DNA of 64,000 bases from positions 2,194,501 to 2,258,500 of the forward strand of contig NZ_AP019697.1 in the NCBI RefSeq assembly GCF_007164725.1. The letters run 5' to 3'. Shown one piece after another: positions 50,469 to 63,313 of this stretch; positions within the stretch are counted from its first letter, which is position 1; the number at the start of each line of letters is the position of its first letter. A model generated the notes under the pieces. It was not told the origin of the DNA. It searched no databases and saw only the letters and a list, made by a program, of their open reading frames with translations. This DNA is from Dialister hominis. Its GTDB lineage: Bacteria; Bacillota; Negativicutes; Veillonellales; Dialisteraceae. Made by a program: the position numbers and the translations under genes.

Positions 50469-51362
50469 GTGACAACAGATGGAATACCAAGGCTATGCGG
50501 CGGAACGTTCTTCGTACTCCTGCTGCAGGCATTAAAGAATAGGAAAAGCGCCCGAGAGCATTACAAAGGAGATCGTGATGGCCTCTCTGACCCGGAAGTG
50601 CTCATCGGGCTTATCAAGGTAATTAATCCTGATTACGAGCCGCCAAGGCTCGAGCGGATAAAGACAAAGACAAATGATTTCAAGGCATGCAAGCTGTCGA
50701 AGGGTGAGTATCTTCCCTTTGGAAACACACCGGAAGTAGAAGTGTTTGACGAAAGAATCAGAACGGAATACGGGTCTGCGCTGATTCCTATGACGGATTT
50801 CGTGAATGAGTTTCTCGACCTCGGAGAAACCGTGCATAAGGATGTCAGATTGGTAAAAGCACTGATTGAACTTGTCCAGTGTGACTACAGCATTGCATCG
50901 GATGAAGGATTCTTCATCCGCGACGATGGAGGGCAAATAAAAAAGGCCGCACTTAGCGACCTGACAAAAGTGTGCTATCCAGCATTTTTGCTTGGAATCT
51001 GGCACTATGTAGTTGTGAATCGGAAGGACAATAGCATCGGAAAACCTACATATGATGAATGGTGCCCAGAGAATGGCGGTGGCCCGAGAAACTACTCAGG
51101 CAATATGGGCAAAGGCATTACAGCTGACATCAGGACATATATGCCGGAGCCCACGGATGCGGAACCGGCGGATGATGCCCAGCCTGATAATGAGTCAAAT
51201 GAAGATGAGCAAGAGGACGACAATCAGTCTGCCGCATTTTCGCAGCAGGTAATCAATAATCCTCTGTTTATTCAGCAAAACGGGGATAACAATACGATTC
51301 TGTCAAACTACGGCACAGTAAATTTGACAATCGGCGAAAAGAAAGGAGCCGCGGATGAGTGA
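50469..51362 (+). CDS. Unrecognised protein with C-terminal NYGTV motif (defense operon gene 1)
   Basis: 297 residues from GTG 50469 (agagg upstream). TTDGIPRLCGGTFFVLLLQA, then LSDPEVLIGLIKVINPDYEP, VHKDVRLVKALIELVQCDYS, FLLGIWHYVVVNRKDN and CPENGGGPRNYSG, which look like a conserved globular domain. An acidic linker (DNESNEDEQEDDNQ) follows, and the end carries IQQNGDNNTILSNYGTVNLT. I recall similar proteins of unknown function in Firmicutes mobile elements. It overlaps gene 2 by 8 bp, so the two products are probably partners. Confidence 0.75.
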   Translation: MTTDGIPRLCGGTFFVLLLQALKNRKSAREHYKGDRDGLSDPEVLIGLIKVINPDYEPPRLERIKTKTNDFKACKLSKGEYLPFGNTPEVEVFDERIRTEYGSALIPMTDFVNEFLDLGETVHKDVRLVKALIELVQCDYSIASDEGFFIRDDGGQIKKAALSDLTKVCYPAFLLGIWHYVVVNRKDNSIGKPTYDEWCPENGGGPRNYSGNMGKGITADIRTYMPEPTDAEPADDAQPDNESNEDEQEDDNQSAAFSQQVINNPLFIQQNGDNNTILSNYGTVNLTIGEKKGAADE

Positions 51363-52005
51363 CAAACTTGAAGTAATATCAGCTTCCAATCTTCCGGACG
51401 ACAGGAAGCCAGATGTGACACAGACCGGCAATGAGAATGTGGCCATTGCAAACTACGGCACAGTTCAAATGCAGGTCAACCAGCAGTTTTGTGGAATGCC
51501 ACAGCTTGGAGGACAGTTTTATGTGCCACCGCGGATAAACCGCGAGTATTACAACATCTTTGTCATCGGCACTGAGGAGTACGACAAGCCTTATTTCAAA
51601 GTCCCGCGGGATCGAGCTTTGTCCGAGTGCATGTCTAAGGAGACAAAAGAAAAATTCTCTGGCATGACGAAAGAGGACAAGCAGCAAATCATTATGATGC
51701 CGTCTCTTTTCATGGCGGAGAATCATCAGTACGGTAATGCCGATGATGGCCAGAAGGTCATATACGGTTTCGTGTCGGATTACAAGATCTACGAAAATGA
51801 TGTGAAGGTCTTCTGGTGCGGGTACAGACTGGACATTCCTCAGATACGGCTGAATGAGCTTCTGGAAGAGCTGCAGCTTATCGGAGACAACCGGTTCAAC
51901 GAGATGAATCGGACGCATTGGGCAATAAAGAGATGCGACCTGATACAAGAACTTCAAGAAGCAGGCATCGAGATTCCGGTATTTACATATGGAACATCGA
52001 ATTGA
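51355..52005 (+). CDS. Unrecognised protein with N-terminal NYGTV motif (defense operon gene 2)
   Basis: 216 residues. The N-terminus repeats the motif at the end of gene 1 (TGNENVAIANYGTVQMQVNQ). The core (YYNIFVIGTEEYDKPYFKVP, VFWCGYRLDIPQIRLNELLE) is followed by MNRTHWAIKRCDLIQELQEA, a possible sensor or adaptor. No catalytic motif is seen. Translationally coupled to gene 1. Confidence 0.7.
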   Translation: MSDKLEVISASNLPDDRKPDVTQTGNENVAIANYGTVQMQVNQQFCGMPQLGGQFYVPPRINREYYNIFVIGTEEYDKPYFKVPRDRALSECMSKETKEKFSGMTKEDKQQIIMMPSLFMAENHQYGNADDGQKVIYGFVSDYKIYENDVKVFWCGYRLDIPQIRLNELLEELQLIGDNRFNEMNRTHWAIKRCDLIQELQEAGIEIPVFTYGTSN

Positions 52006-52021
52006 GACACGGAGGAACAGT

Positions 52022-52237
52022 ATGAAAGACGAAGTTCAGAGAACAATGACGGCAGACGAAATGCCTGAAAAATGGGTGAACCTCGAAGATATAGCGGACT
52101 ATCTGAGCGTCAGCAACGACACGATAAGAAACTGGATTAAAGACGGGAAGCTTCCTTATTACAAGGCGGGCAAGCGTTACAAATTCAAGATTTCGGAAGT
52201 GGACGAGTGGCTTCGCAAAGGAAAAATCACCGAATGA
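52022..52237 (+). CDS. Excisionase/MerR-type helix-turn-helix protein
   Basis: 71 residues from ATG 52022 (cggaggaac upstream). WVNLEDIADYLSVSNDTIRN, WIKDGKLPYYKAGKRYKFKI and VDEWLRKG are the classic HTH_17 pattern. Could regulate this operon by binding near its promoter, or act as an excision factor for the island. Confidence 0.9.
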   Translation: MKDEVQRTMTADEMPEKWVNLEDIADYLSVSNDTIRNWIKDGKLPYYKAGKRYKFKISEVDEWLRKGKITE

Positions 52238-52268: not shown

Positions 52269-54591
52269 ATGCAGGATAAGATGACTTCGCTGATCACAAA
52301 GATAAAACTTGATGCCTCTACGGAAGCCTATACTTTTCATGATGAGGAAGTCTGTCCGACCTACATCAATTTCTTCTTCGGAAAGAACGGAGCCGGGAAA
52401 AGCAGTATAGCGGATGCATTCAGGCACCCAGAGTGCCTTGAATGGAAAACCGGCATCAGTCCGGCAAACTATTCTGTCCTGATTTACGATAAGACCTTCG
52501 TCAGCCAGAATTTTGCAGACTATGGCAATCTGAAAGGTGTTTTTACGCTGAGCCAGGAGAATGTCGAAGCAAGGCAGAAAGCGGAGGCTGCAGCGCAGGA
52601 ACGGACGCAGGTCGCACAGGATGGTAAGAAAGCTGCTGAAGCCAGAGACAAAAAGCATGGAGAATTAGCTCCGCTGCTGGAGAATTTCAGAAACGTCTGC
52701 TGGGAAGGCGCACGCGAATATCGCAAGGACTATGACCAGACTAAGAAGAAGTCCCGCGAGCGGTTTACCGACGAGGTGCTGTCTGGAGACTATTCTCCAG
52801 TCGACCATAACGACACAGCCATAAAGGAGCTCTATGACGTAGCTTTCGATCCGGATGCCAGAAGATACGATCTGTTCAAGTCGTCTTCTGAGATTTCCAG
52901 CAGCTATGATTTGTCCGGGCTTTCGCTGCTTGCCGAAGCAATTACGAGCAGCGGCGGGACGGAATTTGCTAGATTCATGAAAGTACTGAACGCTTCAGAG
53001 TGGGTTCGCCGTGGCCACGATGCCTATGTTCATAAAGCTGACGGAAAATGCCCGTTCTGTCAGCAGAAGCTCCCCAGACGATTTTGAGACATCTATGGCA
53101 AGCGCATTTGATGAAAGCTATCAGGAGTCGCTAAACGCACTGCGTACTCTGCAGTCTAACTATGACACGAAAATGAAAGCTCTTGTTGCGCTGTACCAAG
53201 GCAATCTTGACGACGCCTATCCCAAGGCAGAGGAACTGGCCGTTTACGGAACAAAATTGGCAGAGCTTCAATCCCGCATTCTCGAAAACAATCAGCTGAT
53301 TGCCGATAAGATTTCTTCACCGGTAAAGGTAATAGAGCTGAAGGATGCCGATGCGATTATTTCAGAACTGGATGCGTTGGTCTTACAAATCAACAGACAG
53401 ATTCAGAATAATAATGACATTGTCGCTGCAAAATCCAGCAAGCAAAGTGAGTGCAACCGCATGGTCTGGGAAAAGATCGCCTTCATCCTGAAGGACTATG
53501 TTGCCGACTATATCGCTTCGAAAAAGAAGATCGAGGATGAAGAAGCGGTGCTGCAGGAAAAGGTCAAGGATCTCCAGACACAATATCGCTCTCTGACACA
53601 GGAGATAAACGACCTGAATGCCGGGATTATCAACACGGCTGATACGGTACGAAGCATGAATGGCTACCTGAAAGACTCCGGATTCGAAGGATTCAGCCTG
53701 CACGAAAAAGAAGGCGTCAAAGGCGGATATGAAGTCATACGCGATGACGGTAAAGTGGCCGTGAATCTAAGTGAGGGCGAGCGCAACTTCATCGCGTTCC
53801 TCTACTTCTATCATGTAGTTCACGGCATGCGGTCAGAAACAGACTCTGGCAAAAACAAGATCGTCGTAATCGATGATCCGGTTTCAAGTATGGACAGCAG
53901 CGCCCTCTTCATCGTAGGTTCGCTGGTCAGGGAAATGATAGGAATATGTGCAAATGTTGCTGATCCGGTTGAAAACGAGAATCCGATATTCGCTGGAAGG
54001 TACATCAAGCAGATTTTCATCCTGACGCACAACGTGTACTTCCATAGAGAGATAACCTATCAGCAGGTCGGCTATTATGATTGCACCACGTTTTATATGA
54101 TTCGGAAGACCGCCAATATCTCGCGTGTACATATTTGCGAAAGGCCAAAGGACAAAGCCAAGACCGAGTATGAAAACTACAATCCGGTGCAGAGCTCTTA
54201 TGCGGCTCTGTGGGAGGAACTACGTGATGCAGATTCTGTAATTCCGGCGCTCAACGTGATGCGCAGGATTCTCGAGTCGTATTTCCTGCAGCTTTGCGGA
54301 TACGAAGGTACCAGTCTTCGGGAGCAGCTGCTCGAAGATCCAGAGAACAGAAAGAACTTTATTAAGGAAGTTCCAGGTGGCCAGCCAGATATGACCGACT
54401 ACGAGCTTGCTTCGACTATGCTTGCTTATATCAACAATCCGAACGGCATCACAGACGGCTTGAATCTTGTGGTCGAGGATTATGACGATGTGGACATGTA
54501 CAAACGAGTATTCAAGCAGATCTTTTACGTCATGCATCAGAACCAACACTATGACATGATGACAGCTGCGGTCAAGAAACATAATGAATAA
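52269..54591 (+). pseudogene. RloC/AAA_13-type zinc-hook ATPase with frameshift at the hook
   Basis: N-terminal frame: Walker A GKNGAGKS at residues 38-45, then a coiled-coil arm, ending KCPFCQQKLPRRF and TGA at 53085. A four-C tract (ctccccaga) explains it: with three C the frame reads CQQKLPDDFETSMASAFDES and continues to 54591. The second part has the return coiled coil, VNLSEGERNFIAF (signature) and IVVIDDPVSSMDS (Walker B), then a C-terminal region with MRRILESYF. CPFCQQKL is a zinc-hook. RloC relatives are anticodon nucleases controlled by this ATPase, but I cannot confirm a nuclease triad here. Confidence 0.8.
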
Positions 54592-54608: not shown

Positions 54609-55313
54609 ATGCCAAAACAAATAAAATCAAAGGAACGAGTCGCGGAACACGGCGAGGTTTTCACGAATGAGCGTGAAGTCAATGCCATGCTCGATCTCGT
54701 GAAAAGCGAGACCGACCGGATTGAGAGCCGGTTTTTGGAGCCAGCATGTGGCGATGGAAACTTCCTTGCGGAGATTCTCCGCCGGAAGCTTGCACGGGTG
54801 AAGCGACAATATAAGAAGAATAATTCCGAATACACGAAGAACGCTTTTCTGGCGCTTACGAGTATCTACGGAATTGATATACAGGAAGACAATGTCAAGG
54901 AATGCCGCGAACGGCTATTCAAGATCTGGGACGAAGCCTATACAAAGCAGGTCAAGAAGGAAGCCAGCGACGAAATACGCGGTGCAGCAAGGTACATTCT
55001 GCAGAAGAACATCCTGTGCGGTGATGCGCTCACGCTCATGCAAAATGACGGTACGCCGATCATCTTTTCTCAATGGGACTTCACAGTTGGTTACCGGATG
55101 CGGCGGAGGGACTTCACGCTCGATGCACTGATGCGTGATGAGGAACCGGAAAAGGTTGAAGATACTGGCCAGATGAATTTTATGGATGTTCTGGCCGAGA
55201 AAAAGAAACAGGGATGGGATTACGACGCCGAGACACACGGATGGACTCCGGCACCGATCAGAGAGTTTCCGTCCGTAGATTACTGGGAGGTTCAATATGT
55301 CACTGAATCCTGA
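54609..55313 (+). CDS. DNA methyltransferase-like subunit lacking the catalytic NPPY motif
   Basis: 234 residues. AEHGEVFTNEREVNAMLDLV and FLEPACGDGNFLAEILRRKL give an N6-adenine-type SAM-binding domain, and IYGIDIQEDNVKECRERLF follows as motif II. The region where (D/N)PPY should lie reads PIIFSQWDFTVGYRMRRRDF, so it is probably inactive alone. It overlaps the active methyltransferase gene by 17 bp, suggesting a heterodimer with one non-catalytic subunit. Confidence 0.8.
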   Translation: MPKQIKSKERVAEHGEVFTNEREVNAMLDLVKSETDRIESRFLEPACGDGNFLAEILRRKLARVKRQYKKNNSEYTKNAFLALTSIYGIDIQEDNVKECRERLFKIWDEAYTKQVKKEASDEIRGAARYILQKNILCGDALTLMQNDGTPIIFSQWDFTVGYRMRRRDFTLDALMRDEEPEKVEDTGQMNFMDVLAEKKKQGWDYDAETHGWTPAPIREFPSVDYWEVQYVTES

Positions 55314-56856
55314 TTTATTTACAAGCGTATACAAACCGGACGTCCTGTCTTGCCTTGCAGACCTGTCGAACGATGAGGTCTTCACTCCGCCAGATGTCGC
55401 CAACAAGATGCTCGACATGCTGCCGCAGGAGCTATTCCGCGATCCGAATACGAAGTTCCTCGATCCAGCCTGCAAATCCGGAGTGTTCCTCCGCGAAATC
55501 GCGAAGCGTCTGATTGCCGGGCTTGCGGACAAAATCCCGAATCTGCAGGAGCGCTGCGACTGGATTTTCAAGAATCAGCTCTATGGCATTGCCATCACCG
55601 AGCTGACTTCGCTGCTGTCCAGAAGGTCGGTTTACTGCTCGAAGTATCCGAACAGTTCGTTTTCAATTACGCAGTTTGATGATATACAGGGGAATGTACT
55701 TTTTCACAAAGTCAAACACAAATGGGACCGAAATGATTCTAAAGGACATTGCATTTACTGCGGGATAAGTTATGGAAACGAGCTTAATGATATCAAACGT
55801 GAAGGAATGGAGAATCACGCATACGAATTTATACATACGTTACACCCGGAGGAAATATTTAATATGAAGTTTGATGTGATAATTAGTAATCCTCCATATC
55901 AACTCAGTGATGGAGGTGGTGGTGCTGGCAAGAGTGCGTCACCTATTTATCAGAAATTTGTGCAACAAGCAAAGAAGCTCAATCCAAGGTACATGACGAT
56001 GATCACGCCATCTCGTTGGTTAAATGGCGGCAAGGGCCTTGATTCATATCGTCAGGAGATGCTCCAAGACAAAAGGCTCGTAAAGTTAGTTGATTATGCA
56101 GACTCAAAGGATTGCTTTCCAGGTGTAGATATCCCTGGCGGCATCAGCTATTTCTTATGGTCAAGAGATTCAAGCAATGATGACTGTACCATCGTAAACG
56201 TTAATAAAGGTGGTATAGAAACGTCGATGGTTCGGAACTTGAATGAATTTCCAACCTTTATTCGCAATAATGAAGCTGTGGCAATTGTCCGTAAAGTGAA
56301 AGCTTTCAAAGAAAAAACGATGGCTGATCAAGTGCTATCAAGAAGACCATTTGGGTTAGATTCGGCCACTCCTTTTGATGAGGATGGAGACGTGACACTT
56401 AGGAGCAGTAAAGGCCTTGGGAAAATCAGACATGCTTGCATTACACAGGGCAAGAATATTTTGAATAAGTGGAAGGTCATTGTCTCAAAGGTCTCTTTTG
56501 AGCACGCAGGTGTTCCCGATAAGAACGGTCAGATGCGTGTCCTTTCTGTGGTTCAAAAGCTACCTCCAAATTCTGCTTGCACGGAGAGTTATCTCGTCGC
56601 AGGAGTATATGAAGATGAGGAGCAAGCTGACAACCTAATATCGTATTTAAATACAAAATTTGCTCGATTTCTTATGATGCAAATGCTGGCATCTATGAAT
56701 ATGTCAAAGTCATCTTATTCATATGTGCCTGTACAAGACTTTAGTAGACCTTGGTCCGACAAAGAATTGTATGAAAAATATAATTTGTCGGGTGCTGAGC
56801 AAACTTATATTGAAGATGCTATTTTGCCGATGCCCGGTGAGGGAGGTGAAGACTGA
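55297..56856 (+). CDS. Eco57I-like N6-adenine DNA methyltransferase
   Basis: 519 residues. SAM motif FLDPACKSGVFLREIAKRL, a CIYCG zinc-like pair, catalytic NPPY in FDVIISNPPYQLSDG, then MITPSRWLNGGKGLDSYRQE and a C-terminal target-recognition-like region (VLSVVQKLPPNSACTESYLV; SSYSYVPVQDFSRPWSD). It modifies adenine in a site not readable from sequence and should protect host DNA from the downstream helicase-nuclease, whose start it overlaps by 1 bp. Confidence 0.88.
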   Translation: MSLNPDLFTSVYKPDVLSCLADLSNDEVFTPPDVANKMLDMLPQELFRDPNTKFLDPACKSGVFLREIAKRLIAGLADKIPNLQERCDWIFKNQLYGIAITELTSLLSRRSVYCSKYPNSSFSITQFDDIQGNVLFHKVKHKWDRNDSKGHCIYCGISYGNELNDIKREGMENHAYEFIHTLHPEEIFNMKFDVIISNPPYQLSDGGGGAGKSASPIYQKFVQQAKKLNPRYMTMITPSRWLNGGKGLDSYRQEMLQDKRLVKLVDYADSKDCFPGVDIPGGISYFLWSRDSSNDDCTIVNVNKGGIETSMVRNLNEFPTFIRNNEAVAIVRKVKAFKEKTMADQVLSRRPFGLDSATPFDEDGDVTLRSSKGLGKIRHACITQGKNILNKWKVIVSKVSFEHAGVPDKNGQMRVLSVVQKLPPNSACTESYLVAGVYEDEEQADNLISYLNTKFARFLMMQMLASMNMSKSSYSYVPVQDFSRPWSDKELYEKYNLSGAEQTYIEDAILPMPGEGGED

Positions 56857-59780
56857 TGGCTGATATTTTTGATCAATATGTTCATCCGAAAACAGAAGTC
56901 AAGCCGATCATCTACGCCTATTCCGATACACGTTTTCCGGGCTGCTTGAAGGTCGGCTATACAGACAGGCCAATCGAAGTGCGTATGCACGAGCACTATC
57001 CGACGCTTACTCCGGGTCAGTCGTACAAGGTTGAATACGTCGAATCCGCTCTCAATGCTGACGGAGCAATCTTCATGGACCATGATGTTCACCGAATGCT
57101 GGAAGCACACGGCTTCCATGCGCAGAAGTCTCCGGACGGCAAAAAGAGCGAATGGTACAAGTGCTCGGTTGATGATGTGAAAGCCGCTATCCTTGCCGTC
57201 AAGACATCATCTCTCAACCTTGAGAACCGCACGCAGAATTTTCGTATGCGCCCGGAACAGGCCCGCGCTGTCCGGATGACAAAGGCTTACTTTGAATCCG
57301 AGACAAAGCGGAATCCGAATCATACGGCGAAGTTCCTTTGGAACGCGAAGATGCGTTTTGGTAAGACGTTCACGTCCTATGAACTTGCCAAGGCGATGGA
57401 CATGAAGCGGGTGCTGATTCTGACCTTTAAACCCGCTGTTGAGGAATCGTGGGAAACCGATCTGCTCTCACACATGGATTTCGAGGGCTGGCAGTTCTAT
57501 TCCCGTGAGGTCTCTCAGGAAACAGGAATTCGACCACAGGATCTGGATCAGTCGAAGCCGATTGTCTGCTTTGGCTCATTCCAAGACTTCCTCGGCACGA
57601 ATGCCGCTGGTGGCATCAAGGCCAAGAACGAATGGGTGCATACGACGAACTGGGATCTGGTCATCTTCGATGAGTACCACTTTGGCGCATGGCGTGAGAA
57701 CGCTAAGCACCTGTTTGAGAAAGAGGACGAGGACAGCTACGACGATCTGGATATCGATAAGTACAAAAAAGATGAGGCCGATAATGCTGTCAACGAGGAC
57801 TTCCTGCCGATCACGACAAAGTACTATCTCTTCCTGTCCGGTACGCCTTTCCGGGCTCTGAACACCGGCGAGTTCATGGAGGATCAGATCTTCTCATGGA
57901 CATATTCCGATGAGCAGAAAGCGAAAGAAAACTGGGACGACAATGACGGCCCGAATCCGTATGCGTCTATGCCGGAAATGGTCATGATGACTTATCGGAT
58001 TCCGGACGAAATCCGTCGTATCGCCTACAACGAGGATTTTAACGAGTTTGACCTGAACGTGTTCTTTGCCGCGAAACCGGAAGTCGAAGGACACCCAGAG
58101 ACGGCGCAGTTCGTCTATAAGGACTATGTCCAGAAGTGGCTTTCTCTTATCCGTGGCGCTTATATGCCCTCAACTGTCGACGATCTGAAGCTTGGCCAGA
58201 ATGCCAAGCCAGTTATGCCATACTCTGATGCTCGAATGCTGTCGGTGTTGAACCATACGCTGTGGTTCCTGCCGAACGTGGCCTCCTGCTACGCTATGGC
58301 GAACCTGCTCGCCGAGAAGCAGAACGTTTTCTACCATGACTACACCGTCAATGTCTGCGCCGGAACAGCAGCAGGCGTAGGACTCGCTGCGCTTGAACCG
58401 GTGCGTGAGTCTATGGACCCGCCGCTCGAGACAAAAACCATCACGCTCTCTTGCGGCAAGCTGACGACCGGCGTGACGATCAAGCCGTGGACGGGTATTT
58501 TCATGCTGCGGAACCTGTCCTCTCCGGAGACATATTTCCAGGCTGCATTCCGCGTGCAGTCTCCTTGGACAGTTAAGAAGGAAGATGGTACAGAGGAAAT
58601 CCTCAAAGAGAATTGCTACATCTTTGACTTTGCCCTTGACCGTGCATTGAGACAAATTTCCGATTACAGCTGCCGCTTGAACATCTCAGAATCAAATCCA
58701 GAAAAGAAGGTGGGAGACTTCATTCATTTCCTGCCGGTACTGGCTTTTGATGGAAGCACGATGACAGCCGTTTCTGCGTCCGACATTCTGGATATTACGA
58801 TGGCCGGTACGTCTGCAACACTTCTCGCACGCCGCTGGGAATCCGCTCTGCTTGTCAACGTGGACAATGAGACGTTGCAGCGGCTGCTTGACAGCGACGA
58901 AGCCATGAAAGCCATTATGAACATTGAAGGCTTCCGTAGCCTCAATAAGGACATTGAGACGATTATCAATAAATCGAACGCCGTTAAGAAAGCTAAGGCT
59001 GAAAAAGGCGACGACATGACTCCGAAGGAAAAGAAGGAGCTGTCGCAGGAGGAAAAGGAATACAAGAGCAAACGTAAAGAAATACAGGAGAAGCTCATCA
59101 AGTTTGCAACAAGAATCCCGATTTTCATGTATCTGACGGATTTTCGCGAATACAGCTTGAAGGATGTCATCACCCAATTCGAGCCGGGACTTTTCAAGAA
59201 AGTTACTGGTCTAACTGTGGAGGATTTCGAGCTGCTCGTCTCCCTTGGAATCTTCAATGACTCGCTCATGAACAGCGCTGTCTACAACTTCAAACGCTAT
59301 GAAGACGCGTCTCTTGAATATACAGGCATCAGCAAACATGCCGAGGATGAAGATGTCGGTCTGTTCAGTACGGTCATTTCCAAGGATGAGTACAAGGATA
59401 TGGCCTCCGCGCAGACGGCTTCCATGCAGGAGAACCCATTCAAGAAGACTGTCATCATCGAGCAGCCAATTCAGCAGCCGAAACCCGCACCAGCCAAACC
59501 GAAGGTCGTGCCGATTAATCAGGGTTACTCTGTACCTGGCTTGGAGCGCGGTTCCTATGTCGCAGAAAAACCTGCTCCATACGACGCTAAGCCAAAATTC
59601 AAAGAGGTCGACCTGTCGAAATTCCGTGTTGGTACTATCGTCACACACAAGAAGTACGGTGAGGGCAAAGTGACGGGAATCAAATCGGGCAAGGTCATGG
59701 TTTCCTTTGATGTGGCGAATAAGACGTTCTTGTTCCCGGATGCCATTGAGAAGGGATTCTTAACGGTTAAGGAATGGTAG
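56856..59780 (+). CDS. GIY-YIG-like nuclease/superfamily 2 helicase fusion, restriction subunit
   Basis: 974 residues. The N-terminal 110 resemble T5orf172/MUG113 GIY-YIG nucleases (IIYAYSDTRFPGCLKVGYTD, IEVRMHEHY, later Glu/His). The helicase follows: AKMRFGKTFTSYELAKAM (Walker A), LVIFDEYHFGAWRE (DEYH box), LFLSGTPFRALNTG, TTGVTIKPWTGIFMLRNLSS and YFQAAFRVQSPW (motif VI). The last about 45 residues (RVGTIVTHKKYGEGKVTGIK) look like the Tudor-like tail of UvrD/PcrA helicases. With the two methyltransferase genes this forms a restriction-modification set. Confidence 0.85.
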   Translation: MADIFDQYVHPKTEVKPIIYAYSDTRFPGCLKVGYTDRPIEVRMHEHYPTLTPGQSYKVEYVESALNADGAIFMDHDVHRMLEAHGFHAQKSPDGKKSEWYKCSVDDVKAAILAVKTSSLNLENRTQNFRMRPEQARAVRMTKAYFESETKRNPNHTAKFLWNAKMRFGKTFTSYELAKAMDMKRVLILTFKPAVEESWETDLLSHMDFEGWQFYSREVSQETGIRPQDLDQSKPIVCFGSFQDFLGTNAAGGIKAKNEWVHTTNWDLVIFDEYHFGAWRENAKHLFEKEDEDSYDDLDIDKYKKDEADNAVNEDFLPITTKYYLFLSGTPFRALNTGEFMEDQIFSWTYSDEQKAKENWDDNDGPNPYASMPEMVMMTYRIPDEIRRIAYNEDFNEFDLNVFFAAKPEVEGHPETAQFVYKDYVQKWLSLIRGAYMPSTVDDLKLGQNAKPVMPYSDARMLSVLNHTLWFLPNVASCYAMANLLAEKQNVFYHDYTVNVCAGTAAGVGLAALEPVRESMDPPLETKTITLSCGKLTTGVTIKPWTGIFMLRNLSSPETYFQAAFRVQSPWTVKKEDGTEEILKENCYIFDFALDRALRQISDYSCRLNISESNPEKKVGDFIHFLPVLAFDGSTMTAVSASDILDITMAGTSATLLARRWESALLVNVDNETLQRLLDSDEAMKAIMNIEGFRSLNKDIETIINKSNAVKKAKAEKGDDMTPKEKKELSQEEKEYKSKRKEIQEKLIKFATRIPIFMYLTDFREYSLKDVITQFEPGLFKKVTGLTVEDFELLVSLGIFNDSLMNSAVYNFKRYEDASLEYTGISKHAEDEDVGLFSTVISKDEYKDMASAQTASMQENPFKKTVIIEQPIQQPKPAPAKPKVVPINQGYSVPGLERGSYVAEKPAPYDAKPKFKEVDLSKFRVGTIVTHKKYGEGKVTGIKSGKVMVSFDVANKTFLFPDAIEKGFLTVKEW

Positions 59781-59822
59781 GAATTTCTGCTCAGACAATA
59801 AAGTATTGCGGAGGATGCATGA

Positions 59823-62231
59823 ATGTTTGACAAATTTCGTTTGAAAGAGGTGCTCGTCCAGTACAAGAAGGATTTCCTTCCGAAGCACTGGAAAGACGAA
59901 AAATATAAGTGGGAAGCGGTTAAATGCTTTCAGGACAACTGGGATGTGAAAGCGGAGGACTTTGCTGATATGCTCAGCCGGTCTCTCTCCAAAACCTATA
60001 ACCTTCTTGCCTCGATGAATAATTTCCCGGCACGAATGATTACCGGTTTCGCCAAGACTGCGCCGGAGGAAGTCCGGGCGATGTATATTGACCTTTTTGA
60101 CGAGACCAAGGAAGTCTACGAGCGGATCAACGCATTCAAAATGCAGTCATCTATTCTGCTCGAAAAGTACGGAAACGGAGCCGGACAACATTATCAGTAT
60201 GAGAATGCCATCACGACATACCTGTGGCTGCGATATCCGGACAAGTACTACATCTATAAGTTCGGTGAGGTAAAGGCAGCGTCCGATGTCCTCGAAAGCG
60301 ACTACCGCTTCAAGAAAGGCGCATACGCGGATAATATCCGGAATTTCTATAAATTCTATGATGAAATCTGTGAGGAACTGAAACAGGATACAGAGCTGGT
60401 AAACCTGTTCCGAAGTCAACTTACAAGCGACTGCTATCCAGATCCGGAACTGAAAACGCTGACCTTCGATGTAGGGTTCTACATCTCGCGGGAATATTCT
60501 AAGAAAGATAGCGGCGATCCCGATAATAATGTGTGGTTCCCGTCACAGGAAGAATATGCGCCCGGCATCACTGTTCAGGAATGGGTGGCACTGCTGAATG
60601 ATAAAAGTGTCTTTACACAGAGCAGCCTTGAAATTATGAAGCGCTTCAAGGACTACGGCGGCGCAGCCACCTGCACACAGCTTGCTGTCAAATACGGCGA
60701 GAGCAAGAACTTTTATAACGCCGGTTCTGTAGGATTGGCAAAACGAGTCGTCGAGAAGACCGGATGCCCGGTTATGCCGAGAGATTCTGATAATTCCAGA
60801 TGGTGGCCTGTCCTCTATGTTGGCAGGCATGCTACAAAAGACGAAGACGGCGGGTACATTTGGAGACTTCGGAGCGAACTCTCCGATGCCTTGGATCAGG
60901 TCGATTTGAAGGACGTGGACCTCTATGCAAAATCTGATGACGGCGAAGAAGAACATGGCTACTGGTGGCTGAATGCGAATCCGAAGATCTGGAGCTTTTC
61001 AGATCTGCAGGTCGGCGAAGTGCAGGACTACACGCTCTTCAACGAGAATGGCAACAAGCGCCGTGTGTTCCAGAACTTTATTGACGCCAAGGCAGGCGAT
61101 CTCGTCATTGGCTATGAATCGAATCCGGTCAAGCAGGTTGTAGCTCTTGTGAAGGTCAGTGCGGCGAACGACGGCCAGAAGATTTATTTTGAAAAGACAG
61201 AGTCGCTTGCAAACCCGATTGACTACCAGACGCTGAAGGAATGCCCTGAACTGGAGAAGATGGAGTTCTTCCAGAATCCGAATGGCAGCTTCTTCAAGCT
61301 GACAAAAGGCGAATATGAATTCATCATGGACATGATCCGTGATGAGAATCCGCTGAATACTGAGGTAAAGATTCCACCTTATACGAAGGAGGACTTCCTA
61401 TCTGAGGTTTACATGACCGAGGAGAAATATGATCGGCTGGCTGGTGTGCTCCTGAACAAGATGAACATCATCCTGCAGGGTGCTCCAGGTGTCGGTAAGA
61501 CATTCGCTGCAAAGCGCCTCGCCTACTCACTGATGGGTGAAAAGGATGACAGCCGGATTGAATTCGTGCAGTTTCATCAGAATTATTCCTATGAGGATTT
61601 CATGATGGGCTATAAACCGTCCGGCGACAGCTTCGAGCTGAAGTATGGCGTGTTCTATCGTTTCTGCAAGAAGGCCGAGAATCAGCCGGATAAGAAGTAC
61701 TTCTTCATTATTGACGAAATCAACCGCGGAAATCTCAGTAAGATTTTTGGCGAACTTCTGATGCTGATCGAGAAGGATTATCGCGGCACAAAGGCTACGC
61801 TTGCCTATAATGGCATGCCTTTTACTGTGCCGGAAAATCTGTACATCATCGGCATGATGAACACGGCAGACCGCAGCCTTGCGATGATCGACTATGCTCT
61901 TCGTCGGAGGTTCAGCTTCTTTGAGATTGAACCGGGTTTTGAATCAAAAGGCTTTAGTGACTATCAGCGGACACTGGAGAACGATACATTTGATGAGCTG
62001 ATCAAGAAAGTCATCGAATTGAATGAGGAAATCAGCCGGGATAAATCTCTTGGCAAAGGTTTCTGTATCGGGCACAGCTATTTCTGCGGCAGAACGAAGA
62101 AAACCTGCACCGACGAATGGATGCAGTCAGTTGTGGATTATGACATTCTCCCGATGCTTCAGGAGTACTGGTTTGACGACGACAGCAAGGTGCAGCGGTG
62201 GGATAACATCCTGCACGGAGTATTTCAATGA
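59823..62231 (+). CDS. mcrB: EVE-domain McrB-type AAA+ GTPase
   Basis: 802 residues. The first about 370 residues are helical DNA-recognition-type regions. About 377-500 is an EVE domain (WWLNANPKIWSFSDLQVGEV; AGDLVIGYESNPVKQVVALV), a modified-base reader. The C-terminal McrB motor has QGAPGVGKTFAA (residues 553-560), FFIIDEINRGNLSK and GMMNTADRSLAMIDYALRRR, with NTAD as the guanine-specificity motif. It should recognise modified cytosine or similar DNA and drive McrC. Its stop overlaps mcrC by 4 bp. Confidence 0.92.
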   Translation: MFDKFRLKEVLVQYKKDFLPKHWKDEKYKWEAVKCFQDNWDVKAEDFADMLSRSLSKTYNLLASMNNFPARMITGFAKTAPEEVRAMYIDLFDETKEVYERINAFKMQSSILLEKYGNGAGQHYQYENAITTYLWLRYPDKYYIYKFGEVKAASDVLESDYRFKKGAYADNIRNFYKFYDEICEELKQDTELVNLFRSQLTSDCYPDPELKTLTFDVGFYISREYSKKDSGDPDNNVWFPSQEEYAPGITVQEWVALLNDKSVFTQSSLEIMKRFKDYGGAATCTQLAVKYGESKNFYNAGSVGLAKRVVEKTGCPVMPRDSDNSRWWPVLYVGRHATKDEDGGYIWRLRSELSDALDQVDLKDVDLYAKSDDGEEEHGYWWLNANPKIWSFSDLQVGEVQDYTLFNENGNKRRVFQNFIDAKAGDLVIGYESNPVKQVVALVKVSAANDGQKIYFEKTESLANPIDYQTLKECPELEKMEFFQNPNGSFFKLTKGEYEFIMDMIRDENPLNTEVKIPPYTKEDFLSEVYMTEEKYDRLAGVLLNKMNIILQGAPGVGKTFAAKRLAYSLMGEKDDSRIEFVQFHQNYSYEDFMMGYKPSGDSFELKYGVFYRFCKKAENQPDKKYFFIIDEINRGNLSKIFGELLMLIEKDYRGTKATLAYNGMPFTVPENLYIIGMMNTADRSLAMIDYALRRRFSFFEIEPGFESKGFSDYQRTLENDTFDELIKKVIELNEEISRDKSLGKGFCIGHSYFCGRTKKTCTDEWMQSVVDYDILPMLQEYWFDDDSKVQRWDNILHGVFQ

Positions 62232-63313
62232 CAAAGGATAAAAGCATATTCATAAAAAACATCTACTATATGCTGTCCTATGCGTTTACTACGCTCAAAG
62301 AGTCCGTCTACGACGATATTCAGAAAGAGTCATTCGAGAACATCCATAACCTGTTTGCGGCGATTCTGGCAAAAGGTATAGGCCTTCAGCTGAAGCAGGG
62401 ACTTTATCGGGAATACATCAATCGGGTGGAGACACTTCCTGTTGTCCGCGGCAAAATTGATATGCCGGGTACAATCCGAAACCGGCTGGGACGCAGACAG
62501 GTTGTAACCTGTGATTACGACGAGCTTTCCGAGAATAACCTGCTGAACCAGATTCTTAAATCCACGGTCTTCCTGCTGCTTCGACAGAGGGATGTAGACG
62601 AGAAATACAAGGCGGAACTGAAAAAGGAGATGCTCTTTTTCTCGGAAGTGGATCAGATCGAGCTACAGCACATTCGCTGGTCGGATATCCGCTTTCAGAG
62701 AAATAATCGGACGTACCAGCTGCTTCTTGTAATCTGCCAGCTGCTGATAGAAGGCTCGCTACTTACAACTGAAAGCGGCGAATACCGACTGGCGAGCTTT
62801 GTGGATGAGCAGCGGATGAGCAGGTTGTATGAGAAGTTCATTCTGGAATACTATGCGCAGGAGTTCGGGCAGCGACTGAAGGGATTCTCTTCGAGGGCGT
62901 TGCAGATCCCGTGGCAGCTTGACGACGGTTACGATGCTCTGCTTCCGGTGATGCAGACGGACATCACGCTGACATACGGGAATCAGACGCTCATCATCGA
63001 TGCAAAATATTATGAGCGGACGCTGCAGACGAACTTCGATGTGCAGACACTGCATTCGGGCAACATGTATCAGATCTTCACCTATGTGAAAAACAAGGAA
63101 GCGGAACTTGAAGGCACCGGGCATCAAGTGTCGGGGATGCTTCTGTACGCCAAGACTGATGAAGACCTTGTCCCAGACAATGTGTACCAGATGAGCGGGA
63201 ATCAGATCTCGGTGAAGACTCTGGATCTGAATCAGGAGTTTCCGGAGATTGCTGGGCAGCTGAATAAGATTGTAGAAGATCATTTCATGGTGATGCTTCC
63301 TGACGCAGTTTAG
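62228..63313 (+). CDS. mcrC: McrC-type nuclease subunit
   Basis: 361 residues. IKNIYYMLSYAFTTLKESVY is the usual McrC start; LPVVRGKIDMPGTIRN, then CDYDELSENNLLNQILKSTV. The PD-(D/E)xK nuclease is LLPVMQTDITLTYGNQTLII followed by DAKYY. It cleaves DNA translocated by the McrB ring. Intact, last complete gene of the defense operon. Confidence 0.92.
   Translation: MTKDKSIFIKNIYYMLSYAFTTLKESVYDDIQKESFENIHNLFAAILAKGIGLQLKQGLYREYINRVETLPVVRGKIDMPGTIRNRLGRRQVVTCDYDELSENNLLNQILKSTVFLLLRQRDVDEKYKAELKKEMLFFSEVDQIELQHIRWSDIRFQRNNRTYQLLLVICQLLIEGSLLTTESGEYRLASFVDEQRMSRLYEKFILEYYAQEFGQRLKGFSSRALQIPWQLDDGYDALLPVMQTDITLTYGNQTLIIDAKYYERTLQTNFDVQTLHSGNMYQIFTYVKNKEAELEGTGHQVSGMLLYAKTDEDLVPDNVYQMSGNQISVKTLDLNQEFPEIAGQLNKIVEDHFMVMLPDAV

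Follow-up and report, generated by a model that had tools for sequence, protein, structure and literature searches.

Two overlapping genes of the plus strand, here gene 1 and gene 2, are located in the window, i.e., the whole stretch of 64,000 nucleotides of Dialister hominis DNA that was analysed (Table 1). The overlap of 8 bp (51355–51362) described in the first-pass annotation was confirmed. The start of gene 1 was set at the GTG codon at position 50469 because conservation among homologues begins only there, and a longer ORF of 354 aa beginning with TTG was consequently discarded. Searches of Pfam, NCBIfam, PADLOC and PHROGs assign neither gene to a family, and sequence profile searches against the PDB returned nothing credible. 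Single-chain models predict a confident helical domain followed by a disordered tail for gene 1 and an alpha/beta core preceded by a disordered head for gene 2, with both terminal tags disordered. The fold search with the gene-1 model against the PDB gave no useful match (best Z 2.3). For the gene-2 core, EVE, McrB N-terminal and YTH domains dominate the list of fold alignments (VIA-align), the best match being 6yex with a Z of 6.6, which is below 8 and thus indecisive by the yardstick of the tool (rmsd 3.2 over 119 residues). These modified-base readers of the PUA superfamily (PMC7641849) have the fold that aligns best with the modelled core, whereas no sequence relationship to gene 2 was detected: the Pfam search gave no match, and in a profile comparison (hhalign) with nine EVE sequences taken from related genomes the probability stayed below 1%. 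By fold alone, the core would weakly resemble EVE/YTH (PUA-like) readers, and the idea that gene 2 reads a modified base is taken as a lead.

The minus strand upstream of gene 1 carries a phage replication module that comprises, according to PHROG matches, a DNA helicase, an endonuclease, a primase end, a single-stranded DNA-binding protein and an exonuclease. Downstream of gene 2 there follow a gene for a helix–turn–helix (HTH) protein, a frameshifted RloC-like ATPase gene, methyltransferase genes, a GIY-YIG/helicase protein, McrB and McrC. The same gene order adjoins phage DNA polymerase and exonuclease genes in the phages NatCom_35866 and Javan105, which indicates that the unit is phage-borne. 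A search among relatives from the family to which the window genome belongs returned the window alone.

Table 1. Positions of the features in the window and in related loci.
Feature	Locus	Position	Strand	Remarks
Gene 1	Window	50469–51362	+	GTG start, 297 aa; helical domain (about residues 5–225), acidic linker, C-terminal tag
Gene-1 C-terminal tag	Window	51258–51335	+	NPLFIQQNGDNNTILSNYGTVNLTIG
Gene 2	Window	51355–52005	+	216 aa; N-terminal tag and alpha/beta core (residues 50–212)
Gene-2 N-terminal tag	Window	51418–51486	+	TQTGNENVAIANYGTVQMQVNQQ
HTH protein, excisionase-type (HTH_17, MAD1-like)	Window	52022–52237	+	Third gene of the conserved unit
RloC/PrrC-like ABC-type ATPase (AAA_13, zinc-hook CPFC)	Window	52269–54591	+	Fourth gene of the unit; frameshift near 53085
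Further restriction island	Window	54609–63313		Two Eco57I-type methyltransferase genes, a GIY-YIG (T5orf172) and ResIII helicase protein, EVE-containing McrB, McrC
Gene-1 domain at the N-termini of NACHT-SNaCT14 proteins	L074, L076–L078, L161–L164, L166–L175			Gene-1 profile matches; NACHT and SNaCT14 confirmed on those scanned
Gene-2 core homologues fused to C-terminal FRG or TIR domains	L151; L153; L156; L157; L158	5019–6317; 85–987; 4971–5864; 5001–5924; 4983–6290		Tagless
Third tagged protein	L054; L056	8189–8710; 8680–9198		Same tag as the adjoining gene 1 and NACHT receptor
Large genes after the HTH gene	L091; L054; L056	6811–10050; 9035–10837; 9450–10811		Mutually similar; in the place of the RloC-like ATPase
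Gene-1 domain protein	L093	4983–8888		389 aa; directly before a UvrD-like helicase, PADLOC candidate family PDC-S53

Matching and co-variation of the terminal tags

The tags are segments of about 24 residues, rich in N, Q, G, V and I, that form the end of the gene-1 product and the beginning of the gene-2 product. In the window, QNGDNNTILSNYGTVNLTIG is encoded at 51276–51335, close to the 3' end of gene 1, and QTGNENVAIANYGTVQMQVN at 51421–51480, close to the 5' end of gene 2. A 14-mer common to both tags, AACTACGGCACAGT, occurs at only these two sites in the whole 2.4-Mb genome, and the DNA of the two tags shares an identical run of 16 bases. The first-pass annotation, which had noticed segments with an NYGTV motif at the facing ends of the two proteins, was correct in this respect, and the match lies far above chance. 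NYGTV itself, however, is just the version of the tag found here; other lineages have different letters.

With homologues drawn from viral contigs, phages, a plasmid and genomes, the gene-1 tail was compared with the gene-2 head in 47 non-redundant gene 1/gene 2 pairs by means of Smith–Waterman scores. Although the letters of the tags vary widely by lineage, the tail resembles the head in almost every pair, as illustrated by the tail/head combinations of the Streptococcus phage Javan105 (FNQSGSGVNIGQATNV / FEQSGQGTNIGLAQNV), a Lactococcus plasmid (NQYANNIYNIEHVENLN / QQNADRIYNIEQANNVN), and the loci L143 (YGSGDIYSDIGTLNI / TGSGDIYSNIGTINQ) and L067 (EQSGKGTQIGFVENY / EQSGKGKQIGFVQHY), while the two tags of L006 show small departures from each other. 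The mean score is 57.1 for cognate tails and heads, whereas non-cognate combinations average 30.0 and composition-matched shuffles 23.3. Of the 47 pairs, 43 score above the 99th percentile of the shuffled set, the match being weak in the other four (L057, L085, L091 and L112), and 20,000 random re-pairings produced a highest mean of 36.6. The first analysis, with 36 pairs, had given 57.9 versus 31.2. Reversal of the gene-2 head lowers the mean from 57.9 to 26.4 and, thus, the match runs in the same N-to-C direction in both proteins.

The composition of the tags differs from that of the cores (N 17.6% vs. 5.1%, Q 9.2% vs. 3.5%), with few charges and an abundance of N, Q, G, V and I. This richness in N, Q and G might suggest low-complexity tails that are alike by composition alone. 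Nevertheless, cognate scores far exceed those of the shuffles, of real but non-cognate tags and of reversed heads. The shuffle and reversal controls refute composition as the sole cause, and the chance that such tails explain the match is negligible.

Identical residues in paired tags use the same codon in 188 of 400 cases, a number that agrees with the 180.4 ± 9.4 expected from the codon use of the genes themselves. Since codon agreement is no higher than expected, the match is kept at the protein level, and recent DNA duplication or gene conversion is ruled out as its source. Moreover, tail and head distances co-vary after the distances of both core domains have been regressed out (partial Mantel r = 0.56; reached in 0 of 2000 permutations, with a maximum of 0.22), so that common descent alone is insufficient to account for the likeness. 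Taken together, the codon test, the core-corrected co-variation and the directional match argue for selection for like tags at the protein level. In the homologues, whose alignment the first-pass annotation had proposed as a check, the two copies match and co-vary.

Fusions, exchanged partners and the conserved four-gene unit

The two genes are fused into a single polypeptide in L129 and L135. The first-pass annotation had advised a search for natural fusions of the two genes; such fusions do exist, but neither polypeptide carries a tag. These fusions, together with the 16-base identical run in the window, could be invoked in favour of tags that are functionless remnants of a split ancestral protein, an origin that had also been suggested initially, or of a recent duplication. 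Such an explanation is highly improbable, given that the fusions are tagless, that codons are shared at the expected level only, and that matched letters are replaced together across lineages. In addition, a split would not produce two similar segments, and the idea of an ancestral split, rejected on account of the tagless fusions, leaves the motif unexplained.

Both modules are also found fused to other domains. The gene-1 domain constitutes the N-terminal domain of NACHT or NACHT-SNaCT14 proteins in about 18 loci, again without a tag (the best tag window scores 45 or lower in these proteins vs. a median of 61 for true tails). Likewise, gene-2 cores are fused to C-terminal TIR or FRG domains and lack the head tag; these are likely sensor-effector proteins of their own. 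In other loci, the tag is retained and the partner is exchanged. A tagged gene 1 is followed in L054 and L056 by a NACHT-SNaCT14 receptor that bears the same tag at its N-terminus, and in L035 by a tagged NACHT receptor that runs off the end of the locus. In L054 and L056, the receptor is followed in turn by a third protein with this tag, the L054 copy of which matches DUF6650. Two tandem gene-2 paralogues, both tagged, occur in L141, and in L089 the tagged gene 2 lies one gene further away while its match to the gene-1 tail is kept. From the tagless fusions and the partner swaps with a shared tag, it seems that the tag stands in for a covalent bond between modules.

A tag with this function could also operate by constitutive docking, in which a stable, non-amyloid beta zipper or two-coil beta solenoid would permanently join genes 1 and 2 with the RloC-like ATPase without any templating. 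The co-variation, the tagless fusions and the overlapping genes fit this arrangement equally well, and a soluble zipper or solenoid of this kind would yield the same co-variation. However, a heterotypic pair need not have two similar halves, whereas likeness in the same direction is what the stacking of identical layers predicts. Moreover, the presence of up to three proteins per tag (L054 and L056; also L141) is easier to reconcile with an open-ended stack than with a 1:1 zipper. Permanent docking is considered possible but rather unlikely.

Among the 41 pairs with enough downstream sequence, the HTH gene is present in 37 and the RloC-like ATPase gene also in 37, so that genes 1 and 2 belong to a conserved four-gene unit. 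The frameshift near 53085 recurs in the metagenome contig L003, whereas the copies in L004, L005 and L009 are intact; owing to this frameshift, the strain may have lost part of the activity of the unit. The 39 full-length homologues of the ATPase contain the Walker A motif, the ABC signature and the zinc hook (CP[FY]C in 39 of 39), and the motifs LSEGERN and DDPVSSMD are found in this protein. The anticodon-nuclease triad described for RloC, Arg-X3-Glu-X36-52-His (PMC2610378), is only partly kept, with the Arg in 34, the Glu in 31, and a His within the spacing in 25 of the 39 homologues. Compared with the RloC/PrrC anticodon nucleases (PMC2610378), the protein shares the ABC ATPase motifs, the zinc hook and, in most members, Arg-X3-Glu, but the position of the catalytic His is not conserved, the gene is embedded with the tagged genes 1 and 2, and the window copy is frameshifted. 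An anticodon nuclease activity is uncertain on the basis of this partial triad. In L091, gene 1, gene 2 and the HTH gene are kept and another large gene replaces the RloC-like ATPase; for this gene and its counterparts in L054 and L056 (Table 1), the family search gave no identification.

The frequent presence of the ATPase raises the possibility that it is the true sensor and effector, and that genes 1 and 2 form a silencing, antitoxin-like pair comparable to the restriction–modification enzyme linked to PrrC. Besides the 37 of 41 loci in which the RloC-like gene follows, this would agree with the fact that PrrC is kept silent by a genetically linked partner (PMC2610378), and with the broken ATPase of the window next to intact genes 1 and 2. 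Nevertheless, NACHT receptors carry the gene-1 domain in the absence of RloC, and L091 combines gene 1, gene 2 and the HTH gene with a different large gene. A silencing role of the pair is, thus, judged unlikely.

Proposed signalling mechanism and comparison with known systems

It is proposed, as a reasonably probable reading of the locus, that genes 1 and 2 constitute a two-part immune signalling pair of temperate phages, coupled by matched amyloid-like tags. Gene 2 would represent the sensor side. The fold contributes less to this assignment than two other observations: the core precedes TIR and FRG effector domains in fusion proteins, and gene 2 stands where other loci have the NACHT receptor. 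The ligand could possibly be a modified base. Gene 1, whose domain is also N-terminal on SNaCT14-type NACHT receptors, would act on the effector or signalling side. Upon triggering of gene 2, the tags would most likely stack in a parallel, in-register, cross-beta (amyloid-like) arrangement, like with like; this geometry is proposed because stacking demands a like-with-like matching that ordinary docking does not need. Gene 2 in its triggered state would nucleate the stacking of gene-1 tags, leading to the recruitment and clustering of gene 1. A tRNA-cutting or abortive response would probably be supplied or gated by the RloC-like ATPase, acting as an additional executor or gate. Since stacking needs like letters, each lineage would keep its own matched version of the tag, and these lineage-specific versions could insulate co-resident systems. 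Two earlier suggestions, namely that the matched segments co-assemble and that they belong to a tag-adaptor pair in a defence system, are both well supported by the co-variation, the tagless fusions and the partner swaps that place the same tag on a NACHT receptor.

A broader reading, given an even chance, is that the tags, hypervariable and self-matching, work as interchangeable plugs, by which one effector domain is wired to a small reader-like protein, a NACHT receptor or a DUF6650 protein through lineage-specific amyloid-like tags that keep co-resident systems apart, which would represent an undescribed layer of bacterial immunity. If this is true, amyloid signalling would no longer be confined to NLRs and would reach into phage-encoded defence. 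Receptor-to-executor signalling by amyloid is known from the NLRs of fungi and filamentous bacteria and, in animals, from RHIM proteins. In the open-access library that was searched, no paper linked motifs of this kind to non-NLR partners or to phages of Bacillota; an earlier mention elsewhere, such as in the original BASS paper (Dyrka 2020), is possible. The present loci would offer the same receptor-executor logic with a non-NLR partner in prophages, along with numerous naturally occurring versions of the tag, tagless fusions and exchanged partners. The specificity and evolution of short amyloid signalling motifs, a long-standing question, would thereby become directly testable.

The closest parallel is provided by the bacterial amyloid signalling sequences (BASS) of Bell effector/NLR pairs, which comprise many unrelated motif families (reviewed in PMC7889193; modelling in PMC8086366). 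In these pairs, the N-terminus of the receptor and the C-terminus of the effector share a motif of about 20–40 residues, and their genes are adjacent or overlapping (PMC7889193, PMC8086366). Similarly, the two overlapping genes of the window encode a like motif, placed C-terminally in gene 1 and N-terminally in gene 2, and an NLR-type NACHT protein serves as the receptor in L054 and L056. By contrast, the receptor of the window and of most relatives is a small non-NLR protein, gene 2, without a Pfam family. The effector domain of gene 1 was not recognised as Bell, as it has no Pfam match and no clear PDB match, in libraries in which no Bell profile was identified. The loci also belong to phages and prophages (of Streptococcus, Lachnospiraceae and others) and not mainly to filamentous actinobacteria and cyanobacteria, and the RloC-like ATPase is part of the present unit. 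Thus, by analogy, the window pair is proposed to work like BASS; since gene 2, its receptor, is not an NLR, the pair is not classified under this name.

A second parallel is found in the bacterial NLRs of bNACHT clade 14 (SNaCT) (PMC12169576), since the gene-1 domain is located at the N-terminus of several NACHT-SNaCT14 proteins, whereas it forms a separate protein in the window. Clade 14 bNACHT proteins have been described as having no readily discernible effector domains (PMC12169576), and the gene-1 domain is, therefore, a candidate N-terminal effector for this clade.
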